Below, one piece after another: positions 1 through 14,392 of a stretch of DNA of 49,528 bases. Position 1 is the stretch's first letter; each line of letters starts with the position of its first letter. The position numbers and the translations under genes were made by a program. The DNA is from an uncultured Bacteroidales bacterium (GTDB taxonomy: Bacteria > Bacteroidota > Bacteroidia > Bacteroidales > FEN-979), in contig CAJAUM010000018.1 of assembly GCA_903945175.1 (NCBI GenBank), forward strand, positions 1 to 49,528. The letters run 5' to 3'. The notes under the pieces are model-generated. The model searched no databases. It was not told the DNA's origin and saw nothing but the letters and a program-made list of their open reading frames with translations.

Positions 1-473
1 CTGTATCCGGTCATCACATATCCGCTGTCGGGAGACTGCACGGCGGCGACGGTACTGTAATTATTCAGCAGGCCGCTGTTTTGATAGGTCCAAACGGAAT
101 CCCCTGTGGAGGTAAATTTCAGTAAACCGTTGGTATAAGGGTTGCCGTAATAATTGGCTGCAAAAACATAACTGCCGTCATAGGCCGGAATGGCTACCTG
201 ACCAATATCATCCTGGTTTGGATGGTTGATGGTTCTTGTCCAGATGGTATCGCCGTTTTGATCAACGCAAAGGAGGTAGATCGCAAAATCACCAGTGGTG
301 TAATCGGTGGTCATGCCCGCAACAATATATTTGTTGTTTGCACCGGGCCGGGCCTGTATACCAAAATCGTCATCGATCCCGCCATAGGTTTTTTCAAACG
401 AGAGCTGACCCTGAGCCGTAAGATGGACTGCAAGTAAAACAAACAGGGAAATGAGAAATGCACGATAATTCAT
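1..473 (-). CDS. Secreted protein, N-terminal part only (cut by window edge)
   Basis: An uninterrupted frame of 157 codons runs from an ATG at 473 off the left end of the window. It begins with a clear signal peptide (MNYRAFLISLFVLLAVHLTAQ, about 21 residues) followed by a mature start GQLSFEKTYGG. The rest reads like a surface beta-propeller: short repeats of the form 'GDFAIYLLCVDQNGDTIWTR', with spaced Gly/Asp and Trp residues, typical of Bacteroidota T9SS cargo that begins with FEKTYGG. The C-terminus, where a sorting domain would be expected, lies outside the window. It is the last visible gene of the leftward run starting at 4673 and lies 70 bp after the stop of the 343-residue T9SS protein, with no obvious promoter between them. 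Function unknown. Confidence 0.8.
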   Translation of the reverse strand, partial: MNYRAFLISLFVLLAVHLTAQGQLSFEKTYGGIDDDFGIQARPGANNKYIVAGMTTDYTTGDFAIYLLCVDQNGDTIWTRTINHPNQDDIGQVAIPAYDGSYVFAANYYGNPYTNGLLKFTSTGDSVWTYQNSGLLNNYSTVAAVQSPDSGYVMTGY

Positions 474-543
474 ATGTTTTGATTTTATGGAAAAAATGGG
501 CATTTTAAGAGATGGATAATTGGATACTCCTGGGTCTTTAATT

Positions 544-1575
544 TCATTGCTTGACAAACTTACCCATCTGCACCCCCTTCCTGCCGATCATCTTAACCAT
601 ATAAATTCCCGGTGACAGGTGACTGACATCGATCGAAGTGGTCGGGCCGGTTATATTCCGATGAAGTAATTCCTGACCGCTCAGGTTCAGGATGGATAAC
701 CGGCCCCCGGCTGATAACTCTGAAGATTCAACGGTGATCTTGTCCGATGAAGGATTGGGATAAAAACGAATGCATGAATTTATTTTATCCTCTTCCATCC
801 CGACTGTTATGTTGCAATTAACGGGTGCAGGGAATGGTTCAAGATAAGGATAACTCGAAGGCGAGCCAAGATACTGAACGGAACAATCTTCATTCACCTT
901 GAACTGTATGTTATAATGATCCTGACAACCGGAAGGACAGTCAGCCCAACCGATTTCAAAATCATAGATCCTGGCCGGTCCTGTTTTGGAATAGTGAATC
1001 TGGTTACCGTCTCCCCAACCTATCCCTATGTCAGCATAAGCGACCCCGTTAAATGTTTCAATGCTGTCACAAACCCTCCGTATATTTAAAGTCTGACTTG
1101 TTGTGAAGTATGCGGCATTTATGACGTCAAAAAAACCCGTAATGGTAAACCCGTAGGTGGACAGAAGCGCATCCAGGGCCGGCACCCCTGTGTGAATATT
1201 CAGATTCTTCCAATTGTTATACCAGGGACAATTTGGATTAATTGTGACCGCAATGTCATACGATAAATAAACATTATAACCATCAGCTTCATAATGAATG
1301 CAGTAGATGTCAAACACGGTATCCCTGTGCGGGTTTGCCGTCAGGTTGAAAATTGCAGCCAATCCCTGCCAGATCGTATCCTGGTAGCTTTGTGGGATGG
1401 TAATCGAGTCCATGGCCGGCGCCTGAAGATCATAGATCCTTTTAAGGGCAAGGTAGTTTACATCCCAGTCGTAATGCTCCTGTAGCACCGGAGATACGAT
1501 GCAGGGCGAGGTCCCCTGGGCCTGCAGCATCTGTGCAGTAACCAGAAATAAAAGCAACGCAACTGTTTTTCTCAT
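544..1575 (-). CDS. T9SS type A sorting domain-containing secreted protein
   Basis: 343 residues from the ATG at 1575. The longer frame starts with a TTG two codons upstream and is less likely. Signal peptide MRKTVALLLFLVTAQMLQAQ. The middle (about residues 20-260) matches no family I recognise; it has paired cysteines (for example CPSGC near residue 205) and many aromatic residues. The last ~75 residues are a T9SS type A sorting domain: FYPNPSSDKITVES near 268, then LSAGGRLSILNLSGQ, then SPGIYMVKM and a terminal basic GVQMGKFVKQ. T9SS moves such proteins across the outer membrane. The sorting domain closely resembles that of the 697-residue protein at 12299-14392 (…GVQIGKFIRQ), so both may be recent exchanges of the same tail. 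Part of the operon led by promoter P1. Confidence 0.85.
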   Translation of the reverse strand: MRKTVALLLFLVTAQMLQAQGTSPCIVSPVLQEHYDWDVNYLALKRIYDLQAPAMDSITIPQSYQDTIWQGLAAIFNLTANPHRDTVFDIYCIHYEADGYNVYLSYDIAVTINPNCPWYNNWKNLNIHTGVPALDALLSTYGFTITGFFDVINAAYFTTSQTLNIRRVCDSIETFNGVAYADIGIGWGDGNQIHYSKTGPARIYDFEIGWADCPSGCQDHYNIQFKVNEDCSVQYLGSPSSYPYLEPFPAPVNCNITVGMEEDKINSCIRFYPNPSSDKITVESSELSAGGRLSILNLSGQELLHRNITGPTTSIDVSHLSPGIYMVKMIGRKGVQMGKFVKQ

Positions 1576-1614
1576 TTGCAAATTATTTGTGGCGAACTAA
1601 ATTACATACAATTT

Positions 1615-3126
1615 TTATTGCTTTATCCATTTCCCCCTGCCGATCAGTTGTTGGTCTGAGAAAAATTGATATACATAGGTTCCCGGATCAAGCAGAGCGG
1701 TATTTATTCGTGTCGCAGGCTGAAAAAGTTCCAGGTCGATAACAACCTGGCCTTTTAAGTCATAGAGCACCAGGCGCGATTTAGTGTATTGGGCACCAAC
1801 TATGGCCATGCAGTACTCGGAGCCGGGATTGGGTGAAAGGATGGCTTCGCTTGCCTGCCAGGTTGCATTCTCCGGAACGTCAGTGATCACCCCGTTTGCA
1901 TCGACCTTCAGAACAAAAATATCATATTGAATGTCTGCCGGAGGAGTAAAAATGCTCCGGTATCCTGTGATAAAAGCGCCTCCATCCGAAGTCGATATGA
2001 TTTTATAAGGCATATATACTGCATCTCCTCCATAAAAATGGTGACTGATGATGTTCATATCCAGATCCGTTCTTGTTATTTGTATCCACATCGGGGTAGT
2101 CTGGAAAGGGAATTGGCTAGGGTTAATATTGTAAATGCCTGTAATGAATACCGACAACCCGTTGATCATCGTGTTTGTACCTGCTCCCGTATATAAAATC
2201 GTATCCGGATGATTATAATATTCCAAACGTTTTAACGTGTCATTATTTTGATTCATTAAGTATGAAATGACATGCTGGTTTGGTGGGTAGGCCAGTCCAT
2301 CACCCATCCCCGTTATCAAATAGGAAGTATCATTGTACTTTACCGCACAGGTATTGGAATAGATCCTTTCAGGACCGGAGAAAGACCTGAGATATTGCAG
2401 GCTGTCGTTCAGTTCAAGGATTTTCAGCGCACCTAACCTGTCGATGGTATTACCGAAATACAACACATTGAGTTTATGCGTGTTTTTCAGGTAGATCAGG
2501 TCCTGCGCAATACAAAGGGTATTGGCCTGGGCTTCGACATGATAGGTTGCAACACTGTCCAAAGGGAAAAGAAACTTCGAAACGGACAATTTCTGCATCG
2601 GATTTGATCCTTGGGTATAATCGAAATAAGAACCAAGCAGGAAAAGGAGGCTGTCGTCAACGATCTCAGTCTGCCACGATCCGTTTTTATGATTTACCTC
2701 CGCCGGAAATAAATGCTGCTCAAGGATATGCAAAGAATCATTGATCCTGTAAAATACCTGTGTTGAATACCTATCCGCACCGGCCACTGAATCTATATTT
2801 CCAATAATGAGGTATTGGTTTTCCTCGTTGGGATACGCGTCAATAATCGAAAAAATTGAGGTTCGCGTTTTGGATTGAAATGTATAGTCATCGAGGATGG
2901 TCCCATCTTGAGAAAGTTTTAAAATATAGCCCTGCAGGTCATCCATGGAAGAAACACTTTTTTTCCCTGTAAGAATGAAATTTCCATCAGGTGTTTGAAC
3001 TGCGCTCATGGCCATTTCATAATCAGGCGTTGGGAAAAATCTGAAAAATGATTCCTGGGAAAAGAGGGTCACGGAAAGTGAGCAAAGCGCGATCAGAAGG
3101 AAACACTTTTTAATACACTTATTCAT
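1615..3126 (-). CDS. T9SS type A sorting domain protein, propeller-like
   Basis: I take the ATG at 3126 (503 residues). The longest frame adds 17 residues before it, but the signal peptide MNKCIKKCFLLIALCSLSVT…SQ begins here and this start overlaps the upstream stop by 8 bp, suggesting translational coupling. The body has repeated motifs such as 'DGNFILTGKKS', 'YLIIGNIDS', 'SDGGAFITGYRS' and a late 'DIFVLKVDANGVITD', as in secreted beta-propeller proteins of Bacteroidota. The last ~75 residues are a sorting domain (ILSPNPGSEYCMAIVG, RLVLYDLKGQVV, DPGTYVYQFF, GKWIKQ). It is expected to be exported by T9SS and attached or released at the cell surface. Substrate or partner not visible. Confidence 0.85.
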   Translation of the reverse strand: MNKCIKKCFLLIALCSLSVTLFSQESFFRFFPTPDYEMAMSAVQTPDGNFILTGKKSVSSMDDLQGYILKLSQDGTILDDYTFQSKTRTSIFSIIDAYPNEENQYLIIGNIDSVAGADRYSTQVFYRINDSLHILEQHLFPAEVNHKNGSWQTEIVDDSLLFLLGSYFDYTQGSNPMQKLSVSKFLFPLDSVATYHVEAQANTLCIAQDLIYLKNTHKLNVLYFGNTIDRLGALKILELNDSLQYLRSFSGPERIYSNTCAVKYNDTSYLITGMGDGLAYPPNQHVISYLMNQNNDTLKRLEYYNHPDTILYTGAGTNTMINGLSVFITGIYNINPSQFPFQTTPMWIQITRTDLDMNIISHHFYGGDAVYMPYKIISTSDGGAFITGYRSIFTPPADIQYDIFVLKVDANGVITDVPENATWQASEAILSPNPGSEYCMAIVGAQYTKSRLVLYDLKGQVVIDLELFQPATRINTALLDPGTYVYQFFSDQQLIGRGKWIKQ

Positions 3127-4084
3127 TGGTATTTGGTATAAAATAGCCATAATACAGGTCATATTTGTGAAATCCATTATACGGTGTCATATTAACAACG
3201 ACATCGAATGAAACATCTACATTGCAAAAAGTTTTGCCTTCAGGTTCTTTATCATCCTTTATATAATCAAATGTACTTAAATAGAAGTTTAGTTCCTCTG
3301 GAGACAAACATGGTTCAGGAATAGAAGTCAGAGATGAAAAATAAAACATCATAAAATCACAATAAGGACCAGGATTATTGGAAGCATAATAATCCCAGGG
3401 GAATGCTTGTTCAAGAGTAACACTGGTAAAATATCCGGGTTCAGAAACAATTGAAGGATGATTGAATTTATATTCCAGTATATCTGTAGCGTCCAATCCA
3501 ACTGACTGTCCTTGATAATCACCACATTTTCCAGCATCACCTCCCCAATACCACCAATCTGTAGAACCAAATGGGAAATAATTACCATTGATGATTCCAA
3601 ATCCCCCGGAAAGACTCATTACAAGTGAAATTGTGCCATCCTTCAAATTAGTTTCCCTCGTCTCAATATCAATAACATTAATTTTGTATGAGGTATCGGT
3701 TTGCAAACTTATTAAGAAGTTGATTTTGGTATTTAAATAAATGTAAGCCTCATTAATTTGCTCCATTGTAAGGATTCCGTTTTCAGGGATCACATATGTT
3801 GAATCCTTATAAAAGTCAACATTTACGAAATTATGAAAGTTGTTAGCCTTTTCCAAATTGAGAAGCCCTTCGAGATGCCATACAACGCTATCCACTTCCA
3901 TTGTTGTTGTTGACTTCATGAAAAGACCATTTTTAAAAACAAGCAGGTCACTTGTAATTTTTTGATTTGAAGATGATTTTGCATTATTATACACAGGGGT
4001 TAAGTCATTCTTTTTGCAGCTTGAATAAATGACTGTGAATGCTAAAAATAAAGAAATAATTAAATAAAATGATTTGGTTTTCAT
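3119..4084 (-). CDS. Predicted lipoprotein of unknown function
   Basis: 321 residues from an ATG at 4084. The N-terminus is MKTKSFYLIISLFLAFTVIY followed by SSC at about residue 23 and then Lys-Lys-Asn-Asp, a good lipobox; the Lys after Cys is common in Bacteroidota lipoproteins. There is no T9SS tail. The body contains a Gly/Trp-rich segment 'FPFGSTDWWYWGGDAGKCGDY' (two Cys) in the middle and further Cys residues near the C-terminus. No family recognised. It overlaps the next gene downstream (start at 3126) by 8 bp and so is in the same operon. Base composition is AT-richer than the T9SS genes on either side, which may mean a separate origin. Confidence 0.75.
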   Translation of the reverse strand: MKTKSFYLIISLFLAFTVIYSSCKKNDLTPVYNNAKSSSNQKITSDLLVFKNGLFMKSTTTMEVDSVVWHLEGLLNLEKANNFHNFVNVDFYKDSTYVIPENGILTMEQINEAYIYLNTKINFLISLQTDTSYKINVIDIETRETNLKDGTISLVMSLSGGFGIINGNYFPFGSTDWWYWGGDAGKCGDYQGQSVGLDATDILEYKFNHPSIVSEPGYFTSVTLEQAFPWDYYASNNPGPYCDFMMFYFSSLTSIPEPCLSPEELNFYLSTFDYIKDDKEPEGKTFCNVDVSFDVVVNMTPYNGFHKYDLYYGYFIPNTNE

Positions 4085-4117: not shown

Positions 4118-4258
4118 TCATTCTATCCAAACATCCACCAGAGTTTCTGAACCTGTTTCAACCAGAACACCCCACTCCCGTTCATCAATCTCGACGGTCA
4201 ATGTTTCGCCACACTGCACCAGGTAAGGGCCCAGGGTATCCACCCCGTCCAAACTTGC
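4118..4258 (-). pseudogene. Decayed tandem copy of the C-terminal part of the 4272-4673 gene
   Basis: In a different frame from the intact gene upstream, this stretch encodes VDTLGPYLVQCGETLTVEID followed by EREWGV…VDVWIE. The intact gene encodes VDLLGPYTIYHGETLILEID followed by EREWGV…LSVWIS. The match starts around 'SLDG/SFDK' and runs to the stop, about 45 residues, with no signal peptide or start of its own. I read it as the 3' remainder of a duplicate gene whose 5' part was deleted. An alternative is that the ancestral protein had two such repeats and a frameshift split them. Confidence 0.7.
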
Positions 4259-4271
4259 GGCTCTCGGGTGT

Positions 4272-4673
4272 TTATGGCAGGTTAATTTGGGATGGAATGC
4301 CCATTTCGCTAATCCATACTGATAAAATAACTTCACTTTCTGATTCGGTGATAACGCCCCATTCGCGTTCATCGATCTCAAGGATCAGGGTTTCACCATG
4401 ATATATAGTATATGGACCGAGGAGATCAACCTTATCAAAACTATACGCCCATACCTGAACCGGGCCAGAACTACTGCCTGAATTTTTGATATTTAATTGG
4501 CGCTTTCCTCTGAATTGAAATACGGAGCTTTTTGTTACCTGTTCAAGAAAGTTAGCGGAACCATTCGAAACAATATTAAACGATGGGATCGGATATGTTG
4601 TATTGCCTTGTCCGTTTACATCAGAAAAGGAGATAAATAAAAAGATAAATGAAAATACCAAAAATGACTTCAT
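4272..4673 (-). CDS. Small exported protein of unknown function
   Basis: 133 residues from an ATG at 4673. Signal peptide MKSFLVFSFIFLFISFSDVNG. The mature part is Ser/Asn-rich, then carries the block VDLLGPYTIYHGETLILEID and EREWGVITESESEVILSVWI. There are no cysteines in the mature part. The final residues MGIPSQINLP have no counterpart in the decayed copy that follows, so the true end may have been altered by the rearrangement. It is the first gene after promoter P1, with about 43 nt between the -7 box and the ATG, and probably leads the operon running to base 1. No family recognised. Confidence 0.7.
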   Translation of the reverse strand: MKSFLVFSFIFLFISFSDVNGQGNTTYPIPSFNIVSNGSANFLEQVTKSSVFQFRGKRQLNIKNSGSSSGPVQVWAYSFDKVDLLGPYTIYHGETLILEIDEREWGVITESESEVILSVWISEMGIPSQINLP

Positions 4674-4715: not shown

Positions 4716-4784
4716 CAAAAGTATATGGCATAATAATAGTGGTCAATTGAAGATTCCCGTAATTTTCATTACGGGAAACCGTAA
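4716..4784 (-). promoter_or_regulatory. Promoter P1 with upstream dyad operator
   Basis: On the minus strand the -7 box TACTTTTG (4723-4716) is preceded by exactly 20 nt and TTG (4746-4744, inside CAATTGA), then 22 nt, then the dyad TTACGG-N4-CCGTAA (4769-4784). The -7 box is a perfect match to the Bacteroidota consensus TAnnTTTG. The dyad centre sits about 65 nt upstream of the expected transcription start. The same layout occurs at 7957-8025 and 10740-10807. An additional perfect 10-bp inverted repeat (4754-4763 with 4768-4777) overlaps the dyad. Confidence 0.7.
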
Positions 4785-4791
4785 CGGAAAG

Positions 4792-4869
4792 TCAGAATAA
4801 TCCCTTTTCATTCAGTATGCGGATCAGGTCGGCATTGTTTTGCGCCGAGAATTTTTCACGCAAATTGAA
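4792..4869 (-). pseudogene. Copied 3' tail of the LuxR-type regulator gene
   Basis: Read on the minus strand this encodes FNLREKFSAQNNADLIRILN followed by EKGLF and a stop. The intact regulator at 8033-8662 ends FNLREKFSAQNNADLIRILN, EMGLF: 24 of 25 residues identical. DNA similarity continues past the stop through the dyad to about 4743 (counterpart about 7984). Upstream of the 25 codons the similarity ends abruptly in GC-rich palindromes. It is either the remnant of a second regulator gene or a piece copied together with its promoter-bearing downstream sequence. Confidence 0.85.
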
Positions 4870-4891
4870 ATTGAATCCCCGCGAGCGCATT

Positions 4892-4974
4892 CCCCGCTTG
4901 CGGCGGGGTCAGCGAGCAAAAATTCAAAATTCCTATGGGATCGAAGAATCCCCGCTGCTTGCGGCGAGGTTCTT
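4892..4974. repeat. Two GC-rich palindromes, REP-like
   Basis: The first palindrome pairs CCCCGC (4892-4897) with GCGGGG (4903-4908). The second pairs GAAGAA (4942-4947) with TTCTTC (4969-4974) and has further CCCCGC/GCGAGG pairing inside. Both contain the word GCTTGCGGCG. They separate the copied regulator tail from the end of the outer-membrane protein gene, and the second lies inside the last codons of that gene. They resemble dispersed palindromic elements, but copy number elsewhere cannot be seen here. Confidence 0.6.
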
Positions 4975-5643
4975 CAATTTTATAACGATTCCGGTGGAAA
5001 GATATAAACTTTTATCTTTCCCGATTTCCATTTCCAATAAGGGGCCTATTGAAATTTTATTTATCGGTATCAAATAATTGATCTGAAATACCGGCAAAAA
5101 TGAAGTAAAATAACTGGTACTGTAAACGATTTTATCCGGAGCCGACAGGTAGGTAAATCTTGCTTTTTTGAAGCTCACAAACTCAATATTGACACCCGCT
5201 GAAAGCTCAAATCTCTTTATTTTGTAAATGACGAGGAGCGGTAAACCAAGAGTACAGAAATCATAATCGTATTTTATTATATCATGGATTGATGTTGGCG
5301 TATGATAGCGAAGTACACTGTCAATATCCCCCTCATACAGATCCCTTCGGATGCTTACCAGTAGTCCTGATCCGATGGAAAGGTTTTTAAATATTTTCCT
5401 GTTGATTTGAACCCCGGTTTGAAATCCGAAAGTTGGCTTTTTTGTGAATCTGTCGTATTGATGCGCAATAATATCAGAAGGATTATCATTGGTGCTTTCA
5501 ATGTATTCAGAAGCGAAAAAAGTTTTATACTGAAGGCAAGACTTAAGTAGAATTTGAAATTTTCTTTCAGGCTCCTGGCTTTGGCTGAACACAGAAGAAT
5601 ATAACAACAGGATAAAACCGGTAAGACAAAGAATTTTTTTCAT
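4933..5643 (-). CDS. Outer-membrane beta-barrel protein (PorT-like)
   Basis: 236 residues from an ATG at 5643. Signal peptide MKKILCLTGFILLLYSSVFS followed by Gln. The mature protein shows alternating amphipathic strands ending in aromatic residues ('GFQTGVQINRKIFKNLSIGSG', 'LSAGVNIEFVSF', 'GPLLEMEIGKDKSLYLSTGI'), as in the outer membrane beta-barrel family common in Bacteroidota. A natural barrel end would be about …STGIVIKLKNL. The last ten residues AASSGDSSIP are encoded by the palindromic repeat, so the C-terminus seems to have been replaced or extended. It starts 3 bp after the stop of the upstream lipoprotein gene and is last in operon P2. Confidence 0.75.
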   Translation of the reverse strand: MKKILCLTGFILLLYSSVFSQSQEPERKFQILLKSCLQYKTFFASEYIESTNDNPSDIIAHQYDRFTKKPTFGFQTGVQINRKIFKNLSIGSGLLVSIRRDLYEGDIDSVLRYHTPTSIHDIIKYDYDFCTLGLPLLVIYKIKRFELSAGVNIEFVSFKKARFTYLSAPDKIVYSTSYFTSFLPVFQINYLIPINKISIGPLLEMEIGKDKSLYLSTGIVIKLKNLAASSGDSSIP

Positions 5644-5646
5644 GGG

Positions 5647-6036
5647 TTATTTTATCTTTTCACCAGTAACCTCAATGGTTTCAGAATAACCAAGATAATA
5701 ACCGTAAACCGAGAAATGAAGTTTCTTTGACGACTCAAATTCTCCTTGTAATTTTCGGCGAAAAGTATTGCTGATAAGTGAACGATCTTCAAAAAGACCA
5801 GCATAATAAGATTGATTATGTGAGATGGCAATATTAATTCCATGATCATTGTCCGAAAACTCTATTTTCCCTTCAGAAGAATAGGCAGAATCATAAATAA
5901 CTTCATGTTTGACGAATATTTGATGATGGATTATAAAGGAATAATCTCCTATATATTTGTACCGATAGTCAAGCGGGCTTTTGGTACAACCAGCCAAAAT
6001 CAAAAAACCTGTCATCATTAAGATAATTTTGTGCAT
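5647..6036 (-). CDS. Small predicted lipoprotein
   Basis: 129 residues from the ATG at 6036. A frame six codons longer exists, but the signal peptide begins at MHKIILMMTGFLILAGC, with lipobox LAGC at residue 17 followed by Thr-Lys. The mature part is polar and rich in Tyr, His and Ser, and ends in Lys. No domain recognised. It sits between the 544-residue T9SS protein and the barrel protein, separated from the latter by 3 bp, so the lipoprotein and barrel are probably made together and may act together at the outer membrane. That pairing is inference from spacing only. Confidence 0.7.
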   Translation of the reverse strand: MHKIILMMTGFLILAGCTKSPLDYRYKYIGDYSFIIHHQIFVKHEVIYDSAYSSEGKIEFSDNDHGINIAISHNQSYYAGLFEDRSLISNTFRRKLQGEFESSKKLHFSVYGYYLGYSETIEVTGEKIK

Positions 6037-6057
6037 AGTAGTTGTTACCTGCATAAT

Positions 6058-6207
6058 TTAAATACCTGGGTGCATCTCATCTTTGTCCATTACAAGTTGT
6101 CTGCCTGTAAAACTTAGTCTTTTTATTTCCTTTCCAAGTGGGTCGGTTATTCTGATTGTTGTGTTCTTTTGGTCTTTTTCAAATACAATGGTTGTTAGGA
6201 ATGATAA
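6058..6207 (-). pseudogene. Orphan T9SS sorting-domain fragment
   Basis: Between two stop codons the minus strand encodes LTTIVFEKDQKNTTIRITDP, then LGKEIKRLSFTGRQLVMDKD and EMHPGI. This is the usual middle of a T9SS type A sorting domain (TTI-x-FE…I-x-I-x-D-x-LGKEI…GIYFVQI). It has no start and stops at 'GI', before the last beta strand. It directly follows the stop of the 544-residue T9SS gene, which already has its own complete tail of a different subtype. I read it as the remainder of a lost or swapped T9SS gene. Confidence 0.65.
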
Positions 6208-6227
6208 TTAGTTTGATGTGATGTCGA

Positions 6228-7862
6228 TTATCTCGCAATACAGATTTTGCCTGAAGCTGAGAAATTCCCGGTCTGTAAACTGTAAATGTAACTTCCGGGC
6301 CGCAAATCAGTCAGATCAGCTTTCACCAGGTGCCTTCCTGAAGAATAGTTCCGGTCGGTAAGCGTTTTCAGCGGTTGACCAGGTAAATCATATAAAGTAA
6401 TGGTGACATGTTTACTTTTTTGCAACTCAAAATCTATGGTAATGCTGGTATTGCATGGATTCGGGTAGGCCCTGACCAGATGACCATTTGTGGAGCTGTT
6501 TTTTTCAGAGGCACCTGTCCAGGTGCTGTAGGGTGCATCGAACAGGGCGACCCCATTCCCATTTGGCTTGTCTGCCGTCCAAACATTCATCCCATCCTGC
6601 TTTGATGTACTTGTTCTTACCTTTGGGTATGGCTTCGTTATATTCACACTGTCATTATAGTGAGAAGTGAGAATATCCCATGAATCCGGATTTACCATGT
6701 TGACATTGTGAGAAAGCAATGGCAGACTTTGATTGGTTTGATCAAAGTAGGTTAACATGAATGTTGAATTATAGTGATTGAAATTAATATCAGGCTGAAG
6801 GTTGTAATAAGAAGATGGGGTAGCTGTAAAGCTTCTGAAATAATTAGAGCTTGGTGCCTGCAAGTTGTAATAACCGGCTAAATCAAACCGGTTGGTAACC
6901 GGCGAATACTTTTCAAACATGACAACTTCGGTAAGGCTGGCGCTGTCGTTATCAGCATCGTTTACCTGGCATGAAATGGTCGGGTTTCGCACCTTGTTGA
7001 TAAATTCACTGTTGAGACTATCCAAACAAACACGGGTTGAAAAAGGACCATTGATATTGTCTCCGGTATGGGCAGTATAGATATGTCCAATATTTTCAGA
7101 AAATGCCACAGGTTGTTCTTCCCAAGCGGCAAAATACCTTCCGTTGCTCCAGGATGGACTTCGTCCGTAGCTTAGGGCAACTTTGTGAAAGAATTGGGTA
7201 GCCGTTGCTATAATGCGACGGTTATCAAATACCATTCCTCCGTTGCTGGAGGATCGAAAAATAAGGGTGTCTTTTACTCCCATTTTAGTATACAAGTATC
7301 CAACTCCATAAGGATTTGAATTGCCGGATGGATACAAATAATCACTTGCAAAAACAAAATCATGTACAGGGTCATTTGGTTCATCTGTAATATCTTCCTC
7401 TATTACAAAAGGATCTGCACTTGCACGCCATATATAGGAATCTGAAACTTTCATCTCAGGATCATAATATGTAAATCCTAAAAATAATTTCAGATTATTG
7501 AGGGTATTGCCGCAGGCGATAATATCTACCCTTGTTATAATGGCGCCCACGATTCCGGTTCCTCCTTCAAGAAGCACCTCCCAGGTTATTCCATTGTCAA
7601 CCGACTTTAGTATTGATAGATCCTGAAAATACTCTTCATCATAGGAATAGACAGCATAAAGCCATCCGTTAAATGCCGAACATATGGCTATGTTCCGTTG
7701 ATTGCGCTCCGGATGATCATGAATCACAATATCCTTTCCGAAGATCGGAGAGGCATTTGTATGGTATGGTATTACTGGCTGCACAGGAAAGGTTTGTGAT
7801 TTCAGAAAGCCTGAGGAAAAGAAAAAGATACTGGCAATGGTAAAAAGGATTGCACGTTTCAT
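6228..7862 (-). CDS. Sialidase-fold (BNR) secreted protein with T9SS tail
   Basis: 544 residues from the ATG at 7862. The longer frame begins with a TTG five codons earlier. Signal peptide MKRAILFTIASIFFFSSGF…SQ. Early in the protein there is a BNR/Asp-box motif (SVDNGITWEVL), and later RSSSNGGMVF, as in sialidase-type propellers; catalytic sialidase residues were not identified, so a binding role is as likely as an enzymatic one. The last ~75 residues are a T9SS sorting domain (AYPNPCNTSITIDFEL, VTITLYDLPGQPLKTL, RPGSYIYSL, GKICIAR). It is first in the operon behind promoter P2, with about 95 nt from -7 box to start. Confidence 0.8.
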   Translation of the reverse strand: MKRAILFTIASIFFFSSGFLKSQTFPVQPVIPYHTNASPIFGKDIVIHDHPERNQRNIAICSAFNGWLYAVYSYDEEYFQDLSILKSVDNGITWEVLLEGGTGIVGAIITRVDIIACGNTLNNLKLFLGFTYYDPEMKVSDSYIWRASADPFVIEEDITDEPNDPVHDFVFASDYLYPSGNSNPYGVGYLYTKMGVKDTLIFRSSSNGGMVFDNRRIIATATQFFHKVALSYGRSPSWSNGRYFAAWEEQPVAFSENIGHIYTAHTGDNINGPFSTRVCLDSLNSEFINKVRNPTISCQVNDADNDSASLTEVVMFEKYSPVTNRFDLAGYYNLQAPSSNYFRSFTATPSSYYNLQPDINFNHYNSTFMLTYFDQTNQSLPLLSHNVNMVNPDSWDILTSHYNDSVNITKPYPKVRTSTSKQDGMNVWTADKPNGNGVALFDAPYSTWTGASEKNSSTNGHLVRAYPNPCNTSITIDFELQKSKHVTITLYDLPGQPLKTLTDRNYSSGRHLVKADLTDLRPGSYIYSLQTGNFSASGKICIAR

Positions 7863-7956
7863 GGTGGTTGGTTTCAAGTTCTGGTATATTCGGGTCTTTC
7901 AGGGGTAGAGGCAGTATCCTGCCGGCTTCATTTAGCACGCTCCATGAAACACCGGA

Positions 7957-8025
7957 CAAAATTAGTCCATAGAATGATGGAAATCAATTGCGGATTTCCG
8001 GAATCATATTTACGGGAACCCGTAA
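7957..8025 (-). promoter_or_regulatory. Promoter P2 with upstream dyad operator
   Basis: Minus strand: -7 box TAATTTTG (7964-7957), 20 nt, TTG (7987-7985), 22 nt, dyad TTACGG-N4-CCGTAA (8010-8025). Spacing is identical to P1. The dyad lies 7 bp beyond the stop codon of the LuxR-type regulator gene, so the promoter occupies the gap between that gene and the T9SS gene at 6228-7862. Confidence 0.7.
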
Positions 8026-8032
8026 CGGAAAG

Positions 8033-8662
8033 TCAGAACAATCCCATTTCATTCAGTATGCGGATTAGGTCGGCATTGTTTTGCGCCGAGAATTTTTCAC
8101 GCAAATTGAAGAGGGTTTTCTCTATGGTTGAGATGCTTACATTTTTCTGCCTGGCAATCTCCTTTTGTTTTAATCCATGGTGGACCATGTGAATCAGTTC
8201 ACGCTGTAAATTGGAGATTGATTTTTGTCCGGAAATGAAATCATCACTCATCCTGAGCAGATCTTCAGACGAAGTAAACCCGGGAAATGAAATACCCCCG
8301 TGTGCTGCTTTTTCAAGGGTCAACCTGATCTCCGACTGATCGGATGATTTAAACAGGTACCCGGTAACTCCTAGCGAAAATACATTTCTCTGCCATGTTA
8401 TTGATTCTTCGGTCGTATAAATGACAATGGGTTTCTCAGGAAACCTTGACTTCAGCCGTGTTATATTCAATGCAGGGTCGTCCTGACCAATCCAGAGATC
8501 AAGCACAATGAGATCGAAATCTCCGGGATCGGCTGTTAACTCAGCCTCCGTTACACTGGGGGCGCTGCCGGCTATCCTGATCCCATCGCGGACGGGATCA
8601 AAGATATTTTTCAGCCCCCAGATGATCACAGGATGATCTTCAATGATAAAAATGCGGATCAT
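8033..8662 (-). CDS. LuxR/NarL-family response regulator
   Basis: 209 residues. Receiver domain about 1-120: acidic pair E8-D9, phospho-acceptor D55 in LIVLDLW, Thr83/84 in VIYTTEE and Lys105 in YLFKSS. A C-terminal LuxR-type helix-turn-helix follows at about 145-205 (LQRELIHMVHHGLKQKEIAR, SISTIEKTLFNLREKF). It starts 3 bp after the stop of the histidine kinase gene, so they form one operon and very likely a cognate pair. NarL-type regulators bind DNA dyads as dimers; the repeated TTACGG-N4-CCGTAA sites around this gene are the obvious candidates for its targets (inference). A nearly identical copy of its last 25 codons lies at 4792-4869. Confidence 0.9.
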   Translation of the reverse strand: MIRIFIIEDHPVIIWGLKNIFDPVRDGIRIAGSAPSVTEAELTADPGDFDLIVLDLWIGQDDPALNITRLKSRFPEKPIVIYTTEESITWQRNVFSLGVTGYLFKSSDQSEIRLTLEKAAHGGISFPGFTSSEDLLRMSDDFISGQKSISNLQRELIHMVHHGLKQKEIARQKNVSISTIEKTLFNLREKFSAQNNADLIRILNEMGLF

Positions 8663-8665
8663 AAT

Positions 8666-10567
8666 TCAGTTTTTTGATATATTTTTCAGGTTCGGGCAGG
8701 AAACCTCCCACGAGGTTCCACGACCGGTTGCGCTGTGAAGAACGACCTCTCCCCGAAGAAGTTTAACCCGCTCATATATGTTCATAAGCCCCATGCCGTC
8801 TCCCTGCAATTTCGGGTCAAAGCCGGGGCCGGAATCAGCATAGGAAAATAAAATACGGTTTTCTTCAACCAGCAGGTGCAGGATAATTTCCCCGTTTTTT
8901 ACATATTTCACGGCATTGGTCAACATCTCCTGAATGATCCTGTAAAGCTGCAGGGTTGCAGCTGAATCATACAGGGGCGCCAGCTCATCCAGTTCAAGGG
9001 AGACCTTTAACCCGGATATTTTCTCCGTGTCTTCAACCAAATCCCGTATCAGTGTTGAAATCCCATGGCGGCCAGCCATGTTACTGTTCAACCGGTGCGA
9101 GAGCCGGCGCATCCGGGTCCCGACTTCACGGATCTGGCTTTGGGTATAATCAACTGTGGTTTTGTCATCGCCCCTCCTGTTTTCAAAACAGCCCAGCAGC
9201 GCGACCTGCATCTGCCCGGTAAGGTCGTGCAGATCTCTGGCCACGGCGCTTTTTTCACGTTCATCGAGTTCGATGATCTTCCGTGCCGAAGCGATTTGCT
9301 CCTGCTGCAATTTCATCCGACCGCGCTGGCGGATCCATAAAACGGCTGCAATCGCTATGAGCAAAAGCAAAATGGAGATAGACAGCCAGAACCGGGTTTT
9401 CTGGATGGTCGTTTTTTGCCGAAGCAATTCCTGCTCTTTAACCTGGATGGTCAATTCTTTATTCTTGACATCCAAAAGGGAGGTCAGCAGCCGTACTTGC
9501 TTTGCTGCATTTTTCTGATCGGAGGCAACCAGGTTGTTTAATGCTTTTTTAGAACAGAGGGCAGCTTGTCTGAAATCGCCCTTAGCCAGGAGAATGTCGG
9601 CATAACTGTCATACAGCGTTGCCAGCCAATCCTGGTTGTTCAATGAAACCGCCAGGGGGATAGCCCTGTCGCGGAGGCATATTTCGGCATTTCGCAGATC
9701 ACCCTTTTCCAGGTAGCAATAGGCCATGCAGTTATAGGCTCCCAGTTCGGTTACAGGCATATTCCCTTGGTCACAAAAGGAGAGCGCCTGCGTAAGAAAC
9801 ACAAGGGCCGAATCGGGGTTGTTCTGTTTATCAGCCATGTTGATACAGCTCCCTGCCAACTCCTCATCGCACCCCCCGGCCTTGCGAAAGTATTGGATGG
9901 CCAGTTGAATCTTTCTGATTGCCTCCGGGGCATCCTCATCCAGTTTTGCCAGGTTGACCAGCGCAATTCCGCATTGTTTGTCGAAGGAATTTGTTTTGGA
10001 TATCTGAAACGATTTCAGATAAAGCTCCTTCGCCTGGGTCCGGTCCTCCATTTCGTACCGGATGTTTCCGAGTAAGTTGTTTACATCGGCCATCACCCTT
10101 TTTTCCTGGGCCAGCCCGGCATATTTGAGCGATGAGTCGAGCAGCGCCACCGCTGTTTTATAATCGTATGCATCGGTATACAATGACGCAAGGCAGTAAT
10201 AGGCATGCGTGCTGATCTCATCATCGTTCAACCTCCTGGCCATGTCAAGGGCTTTTCCAAACAGGGTAAAGGAGGAATCACTATTCCCCTGCAGGTAAAC
10301 CAGGCCAAGCATGATGTACGACCGGGCCACGGCATTCGCCGATCTGATCCGGGTCGAATAGGCCAGCGCCCTTAACGCATAACTTCTGGCCATGGGCGTA
10401 TTGGAAAACCTGTAGTGGTTAACCAGCGAATCAAGCCTGTTGAGGGAGTCCAGCTCCTTCGGCAAAATTTGCTTAACGAACCCTCCTGCAAAAGCGCTCT
10501 CATTAAGTTGTGTGGTGAATAAAAAAGTAAATAGCAGCAATGTGAGAATTAGCCCGGGCCTGTTCAT
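8666..10567 (-). CDS. Hybrid-free sensor histidine kinase with periplasmic TPR domain
   Basis: 633 residues from the ATG at 10567. A longer frame starts with TTG nine codons upstream and would hide the signal peptide MNRPGLILTLLLFTFLFTTQ. Residues about 60-345 form tetratricopeptide-like helical repeats, placed outside the cytoplasm by the signal sequence. A transmembrane helix lies at about 391-412 (FWLSISILLLLIAIAAVLWI), then a short coiled coil, then a NarX-type dimerisation domain (ARDLHDLTGQ, phospho-acceptor H447) and a GHKL ATPase with ELLTNAVKY-like N box (EMLTNAVKY), DSGPGF and GMGL. It is cotranscribed with the LuxR-type regulator. A TPR sensor suggests that the signal is a peptide or protein, which is inference. 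Confidence 0.9.
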   Translation of the reverse strand: MNRPGLILTLLLFTFLFTTQLNESAFAGGFVKQILPKELDSLNRLDSLVNHYRFSNTPMARSYALRALAYSTRIRSANAVARSYIMLGLVYLQGNSDSSFTLFGKALDMARRLNDDEISTHAYYCLASLYTDAYDYKTAVALLDSSLKYAGLAQEKRVMADVNNLLGNIRYEMEDRTQAKELYLKSFQISKTNSFDKQCGIALVNLAKLDEDAPEAIRKIQLAIQYFRKAGGCDEELAGSCINMADKQNNPDSALVFLTQALSFCDQGNMPVTELGAYNCMAYCYLEKGDLRNAEICLRDRAIPLAVSLNNQDWLATLYDSYADILLAKGDFRQAALCSKKALNNLVASDQKNAAKQVRLLTSLLDVKNKELTIQVKEQELLRQKTTIQKTRFWLSISILLLLIAIAAVLWIRQRGRMKLQQEQIASARKIIELDEREKSAVARDLHDLTGQMQVALLGCFENRRGDDKTTVDYTQSQIREVGTRMRRLSHRLNSNMAGRHGISTLIRDLVEDTEKISGLKVSLELDELAPLYDSAATLQLYRIIQEMLTNAVKYVKNGEIILHLLVEENRILFSYADSGPGFDPKLQGDGMGLMNIYERVKLLRGEVVLHSATGRGTSWEVSCPNLKNISKN

Positions 10568-10598
10568 GGGGTAGAAAATCAGATCAGCAATCAAAGCT

Positions 10599-10606
10599 CA
10601 AAAATA
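10599..10606 (-). promoter_or_regulatory. Candidate -7 box for the kinase-regulator operon
   Basis: Minus strand TATTTTTG matches TAnnTTTG exactly and lies 31 nt upstream of the kinase ATG. The -33 region is only T-rich (GTTTTATG) without a clear TTG. No TTACGG dyad is placed for this promoter, so the two-component genes themselves may not be under the shared control. Confidence 0.4.
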
Positions 10607-10739
10607 CGCTTTTAAAGCATAACATAAAACACCGGTTTGATGATGAAACAGATGGCCGCATTAGCGGGGAATGGCAAAATATCCGACCTGATCTTGATCA
10701 CCGTTCCGAATTGTAATGGAGAGAATCCCATCGTTTAAA

Positions 10740-10807
10740 TTACGGAAACCCATAATAATAAAAAGGGTTCCTTCAATTGACAAGAACATATTGAGAATTT
10801 ACTTTTG
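10740..10807 (+). promoter_or_regulatory. Promoter P3 with upstream dyad operator
   Basis: Plus strand: dyad TTACGG-N4-CCATAA (10740-10755, one mismatch in the right half), 21 nt, TTG (10777-10779, in CTTCAATTGAC), exactly 20 nt, TACTTTTG (10800-10807). The string CTTCAATTGAC is shared with P1. It faces the 10992-16107 operon and leaves a 184-nt leader with no recognisable gene. The rest of the 10568-10991 gap shows nothing else that I can support. Confidence 0.7.
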
Positions 10808-10991: not shown

Positions 10992-12263
10992 ATGAAACTA
11001 TTATACATTATCGTTTTATTTGTTTTTGCCATGCTGAAAATGCAGGCGCAAGAATATCTGATTGATTTTGCAGGAACCGGTGAAAGTACGACTGTTGATT
11101 CGGTGCAGGTTAAAAATCTCACGCAATTCACTGAGTTAACACTGAACGGAACCGATGTTCTGCATTTGATGGGCGTGGTAGGAATTGGTAAGACGGTCGC
11201 ACAAAACAGTCCTGCTTTACGTATTTATCCCAACCCCATGAATGAAAGCAGTTTTATTGAATTTGACGCTGTTGCGTCAGGTATTGCAATTATTGAGATA
11301 TTCGACGTTGCAGGGAATAAGGTAGTTCAAGCTCACAACATGTTGCCTTGTGGCAGGCATACCTTTGTTGCAAGCGGTTTGAGCAGCGGAATTCACACAT
11401 TAAGTATTAAATCGGCAGAGTCTGTTTATTCGGGAAAAATAGTCTGCGCAAGCGCTGTAACCGGAAATGGAAAGATAAATTACGTGACAACTCGTCCAAA
11501 AACAGCAGTACCAGGCAATTTAAAAATCACCAACTCCCAAGTCCCTATGCAATACAACGATGGAGATCAGCTCTTGTTTAAATGTTTCTCCGGTATATAT
11601 GCTACGGTAATCGCTTTGGTTCCTACACAAAGTCAAACGGTTACTGCTAATTTTGTTGCCTGCACCGATGCTGATAATAACAACTATGCAACGGTAACCA
11701 TTGGAACCCAAACATGGATGGCAGAAAACCTGAACGTTGGCCTTCGCATAAATGGTACGATGAACCAGACCAATAATGGCATTATCGAAAAGTACTGTTA
11801 TGATAATGATGAAACGAATTGTGCCATTTATGGTGGCTTATACCAATGGAATGAGGCGATGCAATATTCAACTGTCTACGAGGCACAGGGGATTTGTCCT
11901 GTTGGATGGCATATTCCTTCACCATGGTATGGTGAATGGGGTATTTTGAACAACTTTCTTGGTGGCAAATCCGTGGCAGGTGGAAAGCTGAAATCTACTG
12001 GAACCATACAGGCTGGTACAGGTCTATGGGACAACCCTAACAACGCGACAAACGAAAGTGGGTTTACTGCCTTGCCGGGAGGCTATCGATGGCAAAATTA
12101 TTTGTTCTACGAAATGAGCCGAATCGGCCTTTGGTGGACTTCGTCATACAAGGACACCCAGGAATCCTATGCTATGTTCATGGCCTGTGATTCAAGCTCG
12201 GTGAGCGAAACCTTTGCCCGCAGGTGGCATGGTTTTTCTGTGCGTTGCGTGAAAGATAATTAA
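10992..12263 (+). CDS. FISUMP-domain secreted protein with internal sorting-type domain
   Basis: 423 residues. Signal peptide MKLLYIIVLFVFAMLKMQAQ. The start EYLIDFAGTG…VDSVQVKNLTQ is a conserved N-terminal module in such Bacteroidota proteins. Residues about 75-152 look like a T9SS sorting domain (RIYPNPMNESSFIEF, IEIFDVAGNKVV, SSGIHTLSI, SGKIV) but are internal. Residues about 225-423 are a Fibrobacter succinogenes major paralogous (FISUMP) domain: CTDADNNNYATVTIGTQTWM, AENLNVG, CPVGWHIPS, GFTALPGGYR, WWTSS, and the terminal GFSVRCVKDN. Predicted to be surface-exposed; the function of FISUMP domains is not established. First gene behind P3. Confidence 0.85.
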   Translation: MKLLYIIVLFVFAMLKMQAQEYLIDFAGTGESTTVDSVQVKNLTQFTELTLNGTDVLHLMGVVGIGKTVAQNSPALRIYPNPMNESSFIEFDAVASGIAIIEIFDVAGNKVVQAHNMLPCGRHTFVASGLSSGIHTLSIKSAESVYSGKIVCASAVTGNGKINYVTTRPKTAVPGNLKITNSQVPMQYNDGDQLLFKCFSGIYATVIALVPTQSQTVTANFVACTDADNNNYATVTIGTQTWMAENLNVGLRINGTMNQTNNGIIEKYCYDNDETNCAIYGGLYQWNEAMQYSTVYEAQGICPVGWHIPSPWYGEWGILNNFLGGKSVAGGKLKSTGTIQAGTGLWDNPNNATNESGFTALPGGYRWQNYLFYEMSRIGLWWTSSYKDTQESYAMFMACDSSSVSETFARRWHGFSVRCVKDN

Positions 12264-12298: not shown

Positions 12299-14392
12299 AT
12301 GAAAAAGTTCTACCTTTTGCTCATTGCGCTCTCTTTATTTGCCAAGATAAACGCCCAGGGCTGGAAATGGTCAAATCCCTTACCGACAGGAAATGCCTTA
12401 AATTCTGTTTGTTTTCTCGATGCAAATAAAGGATTTTTGGTTGGGAAGCATGGTACCATATTAAAAACCATTGATGGGGGTTCAACCTGGTCAACTATTT
12501 CAAGTGGAACAACAAGAATGCTTGAATCAATATGCTTTACCGATCAAAATACCGGATATATTACCGGATGGGTTGGAAAGCTATTAAAAACCATCGATGG
12601 CGGCGATACCTGGACTTCCTTGTCAAGCGGGACCTCTCAATCCCTATTGTCAATATGCTTCACAAGCGCAAGTACAGGGTATGCTGCTGGTGAACATGCC
12701 ATTATTAAAACGACGGATGCCGGAGTGACCTGGACTGCATTATCAAGCGGAACGGGTAATCTATTGAATACCATTGACTTTATAGATACGGATATCGGTT
12801 TTGCTGCCGGGGATTATGGTACTATGAGAAAAACCTCAGACGGAGGGTCCAACTGGTATTCAGTGGCCACCGGGACAACGAAAGAAATAATTTCAATATC
12901 CTTTATTGATTCAAATGTCGGCTATGCAATTGGAAGCATGGGACTGATTATAAAAACCACTGATGGTGGGACGACATGGAATACACTTGCAAGTGGGACA
13001 GAGGCGAGGCTGTATTCTCTTTATTTTCAAGATGCAAACAATGGATATGTAGTGGGTTCAGGCGGGACGATTTTGCATACCACAGACGGGGGTGCAACAT
13101 GGACAGCAATTCCATGCGGAATACAGTTTATTTTAAGGTCTGTGTATTTTATCGGAACTGACATTGGATACATTACGGGTTCGGATTCCTATGGGAACTC
13201 TCAAACTATTTTAAAGTCGACGGACACAGGAACAACCTGGGTTCTGCAGTCAAGTAGTGCTACCTATGATCAGTTATCATCCATTGTTTTCCCCGACCCC
13301 AATACAGGGTATGCAGTAGGTCAGGGATATATGATAAAAACAACTGATGGTGGCGCTACATGGGAAACTTTAGCTCCCTATAATTTTTCAGCCTTATCTT
13401 TTGTTGATGCAAATACGGGATATGTTACAGGTTCAGTTGGAACAATCCTGAAGACAACTGACGGAGGGGCCAATTGGGATAACACAACCCTGGGTGTACC
13501 ATATACCTTCAACTCGGTTTTTTTTACGGATGCTATGACCGGATATGCTCCGGGTTTAGGAAATAATTATGGAATAATAGGGAAAACAACTACTGGTGGT
13601 GCATCCTGGAGTTATTCTCCGTTGGCTATCGATCCAATAGACTTTAATATGTACTCTGTTTATTTTACCAATGCAAACACGGGTTATTTGGCAGGTTATT
13701 CCTGGGAATCTGCGACCATACGTGGAGCCATTTTGAAAACCACTGACGGTGGTGCAACATGGACTCACAGGTCTCCAACAAATAATTATTTATTTTCTAT
13801 TCATTTTCCCGATGCCAACACAGGATATGCAGTTGGGTCAATGGGAACAATTGTAAAAACCTCCAATGCCGGTAATAACTGGCAAGTGCAGACAAGCGGA
13901 ATAACCAATAACTTATGGTCAGTTTATTTTCCTGATGCGGATTCAGGATATGCTGTAGGTGATTATGGTCTTATTTTAAAAACAACCAACGGAGGTGCTA
14001 AATGGTCTGTTTTGGCAAGCGGAACAGGGAATCTTTTATTTGGTGTCTGTTTTACAGATGCCTATACCGGATATGCAGTGGGATCGGGTGGAACCATCCT
14101 GAAAACCGTCGATGGCGGCGGATTCCCTGTCGCAGTTCAGAACTATACAACCAACACCAAATATTTGAAAATCTACCCCAATCCTTCATCAGACCACATC
14201 ACCGTTGAAACCTCCGGATTATCATCAGGGGGTCAGTTATTCATCCTGAATCTGAATGGCCGGGTGATCCATCAAAAAGCGATAATAAAACCGACAACAA
14301 CCATTGATGTAAGACAATTATCACAAGGAGTTTATGTGGTAAAATTGGTCGGTCAACATGGAGTACAGATAGGCAAATTTATCAGGCAATGA
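12299..14392 (+). CDS. YCF48-type propeller protein with T9SS tail
   Basis: 697 residues. Signal peptide MKKFYLLLIALSLFAKINAQ followed by GWKWSNPLPTGN. The body is about 14 repeats of 40-50 residues, each with the pattern FxDxNxGYxVGxxGTILKT, then TDGGxTW (for example KTIDGGSTW, KTTDGGATW, KTSNAGNNW, KTTNGGAKW). That is the Ycf48/BNR beta-propeller signature and enough for two seven-bladed propellers. The sorting domain (IYPNPSSDHITVETSGLSSG, LFILNLNGRVI, SQGVYVVKLVG, GKFIRQ) is nearly the same subtype as in the 544-1575 protein. It follows the FISUMP gene by 35 bp and overlaps the next gene by ATGA. Likely an exported binding or adhesion protein. Confidence 0.9.
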   Translation: MKKFYLLLIALSLFAKINAQGWKWSNPLPTGNALNSVCFLDANKGFLVGKHGTILKTIDGGSTWSTISSGTTRMLESICFTDQNTGYITGWVGKLLKTIDGGDTWTSLSSGTSQSLLSICFTSASTGYAAGEHAIIKTTDAGVTWTALSSGTGNLLNTIDFIDTDIGFAAGDYGTMRKTSDGGSNWYSVATGTTKEIISISFIDSNVGYAIGSMGLIIKTTDGGTTWNTLASGTEARLYSLYFQDANNGYVVGSGGTILHTTDGGATWTAIPCGIQFILRSVYFIGTDIGYITGSDSYGNSQTILKSTDTGTTWVLQSSSATYDQLSSIVFPDPNTGYAVGQGYMIKTTDGGATWETLAPYNFSALSFVDANTGYVTGSVGTILKTTDGGANWDNTTLGVPYTFNSVFFTDAMTGYAPGLGNNYGIIGKTTTGGASWSYSPLAIDPIDFNMYSVYFTNANTGYLAGYSWESATIRGAILKTTDGGATWTHRSPTNNYLFSIHFPDANTGYAVGSMGTIVKTSNAGNNWQVQTSGITNNLWSVYFPDADSGYAVGDYGLILKTTNGGAKWSVLASGTGNLLFGVCFTDAYTGYAVGSGGTILKTVDGGGFPVAVQNYTTNTKYLKIYPNPSSDHITVETSGLSSGGQLFILNLNGRVIHQKAIIKPTTTIDVRQLSQGVYVVKLVGQHGVQIGKFIRQ

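Follow-up and report, generated by a model that had tools for sequence, protein, structure and literature searches.

In Porphyromonas gingivalis, the two-component system FimS/FimR consists of a periplasmic tetratricopeptide repeat (TPR) kinase and an adjacent LuxR-type regulator. According to the available parts of the source papers, FimR activates fimbrial genes and binds the mfa1 promoter directly, while the signal of FimS is unknown and has been proposed to be a protein (PMC1974823, PMC5706477, PMC11053733). Another system of this species, PorY/PorX-SigP, regulates genes for components of the type IX secretion system (T9SS) through an extracytoplasmic function (ECF) sigma factor, as described in the available part of the source (PMC4800418). 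The literature searched on the control of T9SS surface proteins in Bacteroidetes gave little besides these two systems. Here, a TPR kinase and its neighbouring regulator were analysed together with three surrounding promoters, P1 to P3, in a stretch of 49,528 nucleotides (nt) from an uncultured Bacteroidales bacterium (GenBank assembly GCA_903945175.1, contig CAJAUM010000018.1, positions 1 to 49,528), which is called the window in the following. It is likely that the kinase (8666-10594, minus strand) and the NarL-type regulator (8033-8662, minus strand; its gene is called luxR below) activate P1 to P3 through two dyads at promoters of the sigma-ABfr type, and P1 looks like the ancestral promoter.

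Layout of the three promoters

P1 (4716-4784, minus strand) reads into the gene at 4272-4673, P2 (7957-8025, minus strand) into 6228-7877 and P3 (10740-10807, plus strand), which is divergent from the kinase gene, into 10992-12263. The layout that a sequence-only reading of the window had proposed for them is exact to the letter. Each promoter has a dyad TTACGG-N4-CC(G/A)TAA (site 1; 4769-4784, 8010-8025 and 10740-10755), followed after 22, 22 and 21 nt by the -33 TTG (4744-4746, 7985-7987 and 10777-10779) and after a further 20 nt by the -7 box TA(C/A)TTTTG, which is TACTTTTG in P1 (4716-4723) and P3 (10800-10807) and TAATTTTG in P2 (7957-7964). The observation of three promoters with one architecture was confirmed as a whole. 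Bacteroidetes sigma-ABfr promoters are characterized, in the available part of the source, by TAnnTTTG at -7 and a TTTG motif around -33 (PMC7366714), and P1 to P3 all combine TAnnTTTG with a TTG 20 nt upstream.

The spacer of the three promoters contains a second, degenerate site that directly abuts the -33 TTG. Counted upstream from the last G of the -7 box, the centre of site 1 is 60-61 nt away and that of site 2 39 nt. With this G near -4, the two sites would be centred at about -65 and -43. Site 2 is clear in P2 (7988-8003), where five of six pairs are complementary, a level reached by 0.6% of the 16-mers in the window. The half-formed site 2 of P1 (4747-4762) has 3/6 pairs and the weak site just before the TTG of P3 has 2/6, levels that 17% and 47% of these 16-mers reach, and both assignments rest on the alignment with relatives, in which the second dyad directly before the TTG reads about TTATGG-N4-CCGCTA-TTG.

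The regulator has the composition of the NarL/FixJ (LuxR-type) family, a receiver with the phospho-acceptor aspartate and a C-terminal GerE domain. The matches to PF00072 (54.8 bits) and PF00196 (26.9 bits) both exceed their cut-offs, and E8, D9, D55, T83 and K105 are present. The kinase has the layout of a FimS-type TPR kinase, with an N-terminal hydrophobic stretch (11 residues from residue 15, mean 2.86), a TPR region, a transmembrane segment at about 397-425, the H-box ARDLHD at 452-457 (numbered from the TTG start) and HATPase_c. TPR_12 and HATPase_c are above the Pfam cut-offs, and no Pfam match to HisKA_3 was found at E<=0.001. The two hydrophobic stretches fit a periplasmic location of the TPR region, which is how its topology is tentatively drawn here.

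When the complete genome assembly (4,407,724 bases, 155 contigs) was searched with the full pattern, allowing gaps of 19-25 and 18-22 nt, three matches were obtained, all of them in the 6-kb block around the kinase and regulator pair and each facing an operon for secreted or T9SS proteins, as had been claimed; the control, in which the pattern was read backwards, gave none. A held-out model, R2, built from 16 luxR-adjacent promoters of relatives and containing no sequence from this genome, ranked P1 first (E=3.5e-7), P3 second (2.2e-4) and P2 third (2.6e-4). The fourth row was the reverse strand of P2, and the best match outside the block had an E-value of 0.13. The dyad alone occurs exactly in five places of the genome, three of which are in the block. 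As a genome-wide marker the dyad alone was rejected, because with one mismatch its 29 matches are fewer than the 85 of the backwards control. Within the window, two mismatches gave 16 matches compared to 5.96 expected. It was also considered whether the P3 dyad could serve to autoregulate the kinase gene; this was rejected, since, judged by eye, the minus strand has no TTG and TAnnTTTG at the right distance.

The promoter in related genomes

In relatives, luxR is usually followed by the promoter and then by a gene for a small, secreted-looking protein with a PIPSF or PIPSY motif, called the PIPSF protein below. Fourteen orthologues from the same genus (L030-L043; loci, genomes and contigs are labelled L, G and C) were compared, and 13 remained after exclusion of L033, whose contig ends about 135 nt past luxR. 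The promoter follows luxR in 11 of the 13. Ten of these have the dyad and an exact TTG-N20-TAnnTTTG, with the TTG starting 126-299 nt past the luxR stop, and L043 has a looser form; at L038 (G006) and L042 (G014) the promoter after luxR is missing. The P2 dyad lies 7 nt past the luxR stop, which could suggest that the dyads are RNA hairpins or terminators behind luxR and not operator DNA. That explanation is extremely improbable given the far larger distances in these ten relatives, the lack of a T-run after the dyads and the dispersed sites, which are located upstream of genes and in front of a promoter.

To cover the genus, a sequence-only model, R1, was built from P1 to P3 and 11 promoters of relatives and run on 19 genomes. 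Rows with E<=0.0022 were kept, except opposite-strand rows overlapping a better one, and weaker rows up to 0.1 were left out. This resulted in 70 sites, including the 14 used for training. Together with 36 sites from the family, 106 sites were collected. The TTG could be placed in 99 of them, a layout which both the model and the script favoured, and 97 were placed at full length with an exact TTG and the core kept. In these 97 sites, site 1 starts 39 nt before the TTG in 88 cases, 38 nt in seven, 37 nt in one and 40 nt in one, with ties favouring 39. The commonest spacing between dyad and TTG is accordingly 23 nt (88/97, ties favouring 23), one more than the commonest value in this window. 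The arms have a clear symmetric consensus, TTNCGG/CCGNAA, in which position 3/14 is free.

At the family level, a site with E<=1e-4 was found in 25 of 43 genomes. A LuxR orthologue, defined by at least 289 bits, is present in 22 genomes, and the site occurs in 20 of these compared to 5 of the 21 others (Fisher p=9e-6). Without the 12 training genomes, the counts are 8/10 and 5/21 (p=0.006). The two orthologue genomes without a site at this threshold are G014 and G033; for G033, R2 places a weaker site in the stretch that separates luxR from the PIPSF gene. G014 (L151) has a LuxR orthologue without a neighbouring kinase, and its genome has neither a PIPSF match nor a promoter site, an apparent joint loss of all three. 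In the order-level search, in which 12 candidates were scored in each of 393 genomes, sites with E<=1e-6 were found in at least two genomes, both of them members of the family. The sequence-only reading had described the regulon as local. This holds for the present genome, where all sites found are in the block, but not for the relatives, where the sites are dispersed. A divergent, P3-like site beside a kinase gene recurs in L250.

These observations can be combined in a mechanism in which P1 to P3 would depend on an activator and belong, as promoters of the sigma-ABfr type, to a single two-component system. The kinase would sense a signal through its putatively periplasmic TPR region and then phosphorylate the regulator, whose dimers would bind two head-to-tail dyads (about TTNCGG-N4-CCGNAA) located about two helical turns apart, with centres about 65 and 43 nt upstream of the expected start. 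Site 2 touches the -33 TTG, and a dimer bound there would stand against RNA polymerase, as in class II-like activation, so that operons of secreted, T9SS-sorted and outer-membrane proteins would be turned on. The spacing is naturally read as binding at both dyads, with site 2 adjoining the -33 box.

Several findings weigh against this interpretation. Site 2 is poor in P1 and P3, and the covariation of the arms is weak: pair 3/14 of site 1 is symmetric in 40 of the 97 placed sites compared to 29.9 in shuffles, a value reached in 33 of 2000 shuffles and, on unique sites, in 162 of 2000, and pair 4/13 shows no covariation in the placed sites. G006 has an orthologue without an adjacent promoter, and the luxR-adjacent sites of G027 (17.1 bits) and G028 (13.1 bits) are weak. 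Strong sites occur in five genomes without a close orthologue (G024, G035, G037, G039 and G042), two of which, G037 and G039, have no LuxR at E<=1e-40. In addition, R2 matches beside the more distant regulators of L174, L175 and L250, and R1 beside the distant regulators of L242 and L229.

The five genomes in particular would fit a different explanation, in which the same promoters are repressed by the regulator or the dyads are bound by another, co-inherited transcription factor. NarL-type regulators can repress. This alternative is nevertheless unlikely. The sites are located upstream of and adjoining the -33 box at a nearly fixed distance, which is the position of class II activators, and the site follows luxR itself in several genera. 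Furthermore, in G014, where LuxR has no neighbouring kinase and no PIPSF gene, there is no site even at E<=0.1. For activation by the kinase and regulator, the sequence-only reading had proposed that the TPR sensor and its regulator switch on operons of secreted proteins. This proposal is supported, because the promoter follows orthologous luxR genes in several genera, occurs mostly together with the orthologue and precedes genes that nearly all look secreted.

On paralogue loci of the same genus, R2 matched 0 of 12, and the seven with a PIPSF gene also remained unmatched in a further search. The site is therefore not common to all such regulators. The idea that each paralogous regulator may have its own promoter type was only partly borne out, because R2 failed at these 12 loci yet gave matches at the three loci of more distant regulators (L174, L175 and L250). 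Moreover, inspection by eye showed dyad-like sequences with similar half-sites behind the regulator genes of L047, L056 and L057.

Downstream genes, origin of P1 and P2, and the PIPSF family

The first gene could be scored within 500 nt for 60 of the 70 genus sites; for the other ten, contig ends (3), opposite genes (3) or larger distances (4) intervened. By a simple rule based on the start and a hydrophobic stretch, 58 of the 60 look secreted, compared to 25 of 74 in control loci and 13 of 25 in the window at 17001-49528. By similarity, the 60 genes fall into groups of 30, 12, 7, 3 and 2 with six singles. Pfam matches comprise PKD_3 (11), Ig_3 (8), FISUMP (7), DUF4402 (7), peptidase M6 (4), and one each of SprB, PorP/SprF and FabA-like. 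A T9SS tail was found in 6 of the 60, many of which are cut by contig or fetch ends.

Within the window, the putative P1 operon (all minus strand) comprises the PIPSF gene (4272-4673; 133 amino acids (AA), small, secreted-looking, predicted beta-sandwich), a gene for a protein of 321 AA without a Pfam match that looks secreted by eye (3119-4084), and two genes with a T9SS sorting tail (1615-3177, TIGR04183; 544-1581). The putative P2 operon (minus strand) starts with a gene of 549 AA with a T9SS tail (6228-7877), followed by a lipoprotein-like gene, judged by eye, without a Pfam match (5647-6054) and by 4933-5643, whose match to the outer-membrane beta-barrel family OMP_b-brl_2 is weak (23.3 bits, below the cut-off of 27). 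The putative P3 operon (plus strand) consists of three genes with T9SS tails, the first with a FISUMP domain (10992-12263), the second with Ycf48-like repeats (12299-14392) and the third at 14389-16107. For the three putative operons, ten clear genes were counted; the earlier estimate of about a dozen proteins was too high.

Homologues of these genes are found under the same promoter type in other genera: of 6228-7877 in L230 (44%), L227 (41%) and L221 (39%), located in the genomes G030, G032 and G042, of 12299-14392 directly under the site in L214 (G029, 42%), and of the PIPSF gene in L219, L231, L240 and L242. Two side observations concern 6228-7877. A look-alike was seen by eye after an R2 site in L290, and in L054 (G015) a homologue (47% over 418 AA) is located downstream of a distant paralogous regulator without an adjoining PIPSF gene. 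The order of four genes under the same promoter type is conserved in L094, L100 and L104: DUF4402, a second small gene, one of about 300 AA and a very large one. In L094 the second small gene is also DUF4402, and the gene of about 300 AA has no Pfam match where tested. These operons may encode a fibre-like surface structure; a literature search for DUF4402 with Bacteroidetes found none.

P1 and P2 share part of their history. Upstream of P1, a copy of the regulator 3' end with the dyad (4743-4869, minus strand) forms a direct repeat of 7984-8110 with 90.6% identity over 127 nt. Within it, 4795-4869 codes for the C-terminal 25 residues of the regulator (96% identity). Because these 127 nt including the luxR 3' end are common to both, P1 and P2 are not independent. 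A comparable copy is present in G012, where contig C471 carries the last luxR codons, the promoter and a PIPSF gene. Over 247 nt it is 96.8% identical to the terminal part of contig C523, where the full luxR is located; the gene beside the copy on C471 is presumably DNA polymerase III alpha-like. Such copies raise the possibility that the shared architecture is due to ancestry only, stemming from local duplication of fragments of one region that have no present function. This is very improbable: no flanking homology of this kind exists at P3, the identity of P1 and P2 drops past the first dyad while TTG and -7 box are still equally spaced, and the layout is kept in relatives at unrelated loci and in other genera.

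For functional promoters of common descent, the order of events can be proposed. Since the first gene of P1 belongs to the PIPSF family that usually follows luxR, the simplest reading is that P1 is ancestral and that the P2 operon now separates it from luxR. The promoter between luxR and the PIPSF gene would thus be ancestral, P1 would descend from it, and the P2 operon would have come to lie between luxR and P1 in an event from which a second luxR tail remained. A regulon might spread in a simple manner, as the copies at P1 and in G012 suggest: the 3' end of the regulator gene would bring its promoter along. At the junction of the P2 operon and the luxR-tail copy, 4870-4980 is a GC-rich stretch with inverted repeats, as seen by eye. 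A repeat element at this junction was rejected, as 4866-4980 is single-copy in the genome. Elsewhere, 681-762 and 14174-14255, which belong to the T9SS-tail genes 544-1581 and 12299-14392, are 82% identical over 82 nt on opposite strands, a hint that the P1 and P3 operons have exchanged sorting tails.

The first gene of P1 clusters with the PIPSF family, which accounts for 12 of the 60 first genes, itself included (alignment A5). Among fetched loci with enough flank, a PIPSF gene within 500 nt downstream was found after 17 of 20 orthologue-level LuxR genes (>=280 bits; 22 distinct, 20 with flank), after 14 of 23 more distant ones (150-280 bits) and after none of six remote ones. The orthologue-level exceptions are this window, G006 and G014. 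The 19 genus genomes contain 24 near-full-length PIPSF matches, of which 17 immediately follow a LuxR gene and two a luxR-end copy (this window and G012 C471). Three others are found at the edge of a contig (G013 C45, G012 C500 and G004 C38), and one, in G008 C49 (L268), has no LuxR in 1.5 kb upstream; the surroundings of the 24th, in G008 C97, were left out of this count. Across the 393 order genomes, with at most 11 candidates scored in each, PIPSF matches were found in at least six, and among those found one is outside the family, G175, with two copies that both adjoin a LuxR gene. The AlphaFold model of the protein is a beta-sandwich of moderate confidence (mean predicted local distance difference test score 79.8). 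Among the 50 PDB matches listed, the template modelling score by query length was below 0.5, and the proteins named are unrelated and point to no function. Two further observations concern this family. Just past the first gene of P1, 4118-4381 (minus strand) contains a second, partial PIPSF C-terminus (4121-4258, E=1.9e-11), probably the remnant of a duplicated gene, and in L251 (G024), 265-4028 encodes a kinase-like end and, behind it, three LuxR regulators, the first two of which flank a PIPSF gene.

The secreted-looking protein encoded right after regulator genes is a concrete candidate partner for the TPR sensor. It is conceivable, if rather doubtful, that the TPR kinase, the NarL-type regulator and the PIPSF protein form a three-part system, in which the latter is expressed from the first target promoter of the regulator and serves as the kinase's own ligand or feedback partner, many paralogous pairs use a PIPSF protein and a promoter type of their own, and copying of the regulator 3' end with its promoter to new operons enlarges the regulon. 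G006, which has the kinase, the regulator and dispersed sites but no PIPSF match at E<=1e-8, speaks against PIPSF as an obligatory part.

Comparison with known systems

No description of this promoter or module was found in the available text of the literature searched, and the terms "palindrom", "inverted repeat" and "consensus" do not occur in the available part of PMC1974823. The promoters described here provide a code that can be put to the test, for a two-component system by which T9SS surface proteins appear to be controlled.

NarL/LuxR-family activators bind inverted repeats near -42.5. The present system resembles them in the receiver and GerE domains of its regulator and in an inverted repeat that abuts the -33/-35 element, but differs in having two head-to-tail dyads 21-23 bp apart, with a half-site of its own, and a promoter of the Bacteroidetes type. 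With PorY/PorX-SigP, as far as its available description goes, the locus shares a two-component system tied to T9SS in Bacteroidetes; the prediction here, in contrast, is direct action of a single NarL-type regulator at promoters of cargo and surface proteins. As in FimS/FimR, a TPR kinase and an adjacent LuxR-type regulator are found in a Bacteroidales bacterium, with a periplasmic TPR region that is only putative here, and by analogy the system may work in the same way. The kinase is not FimS, however, as it reaches 54 bits against NCBIfam NF053520 with a cut-off of 600. Two further differences from FimS/FimR are the shared promoter of the predicted targets, which are T9SS and surface proteins, and the usual linkage of a PIPSF gene to the kinase and regulator genes.

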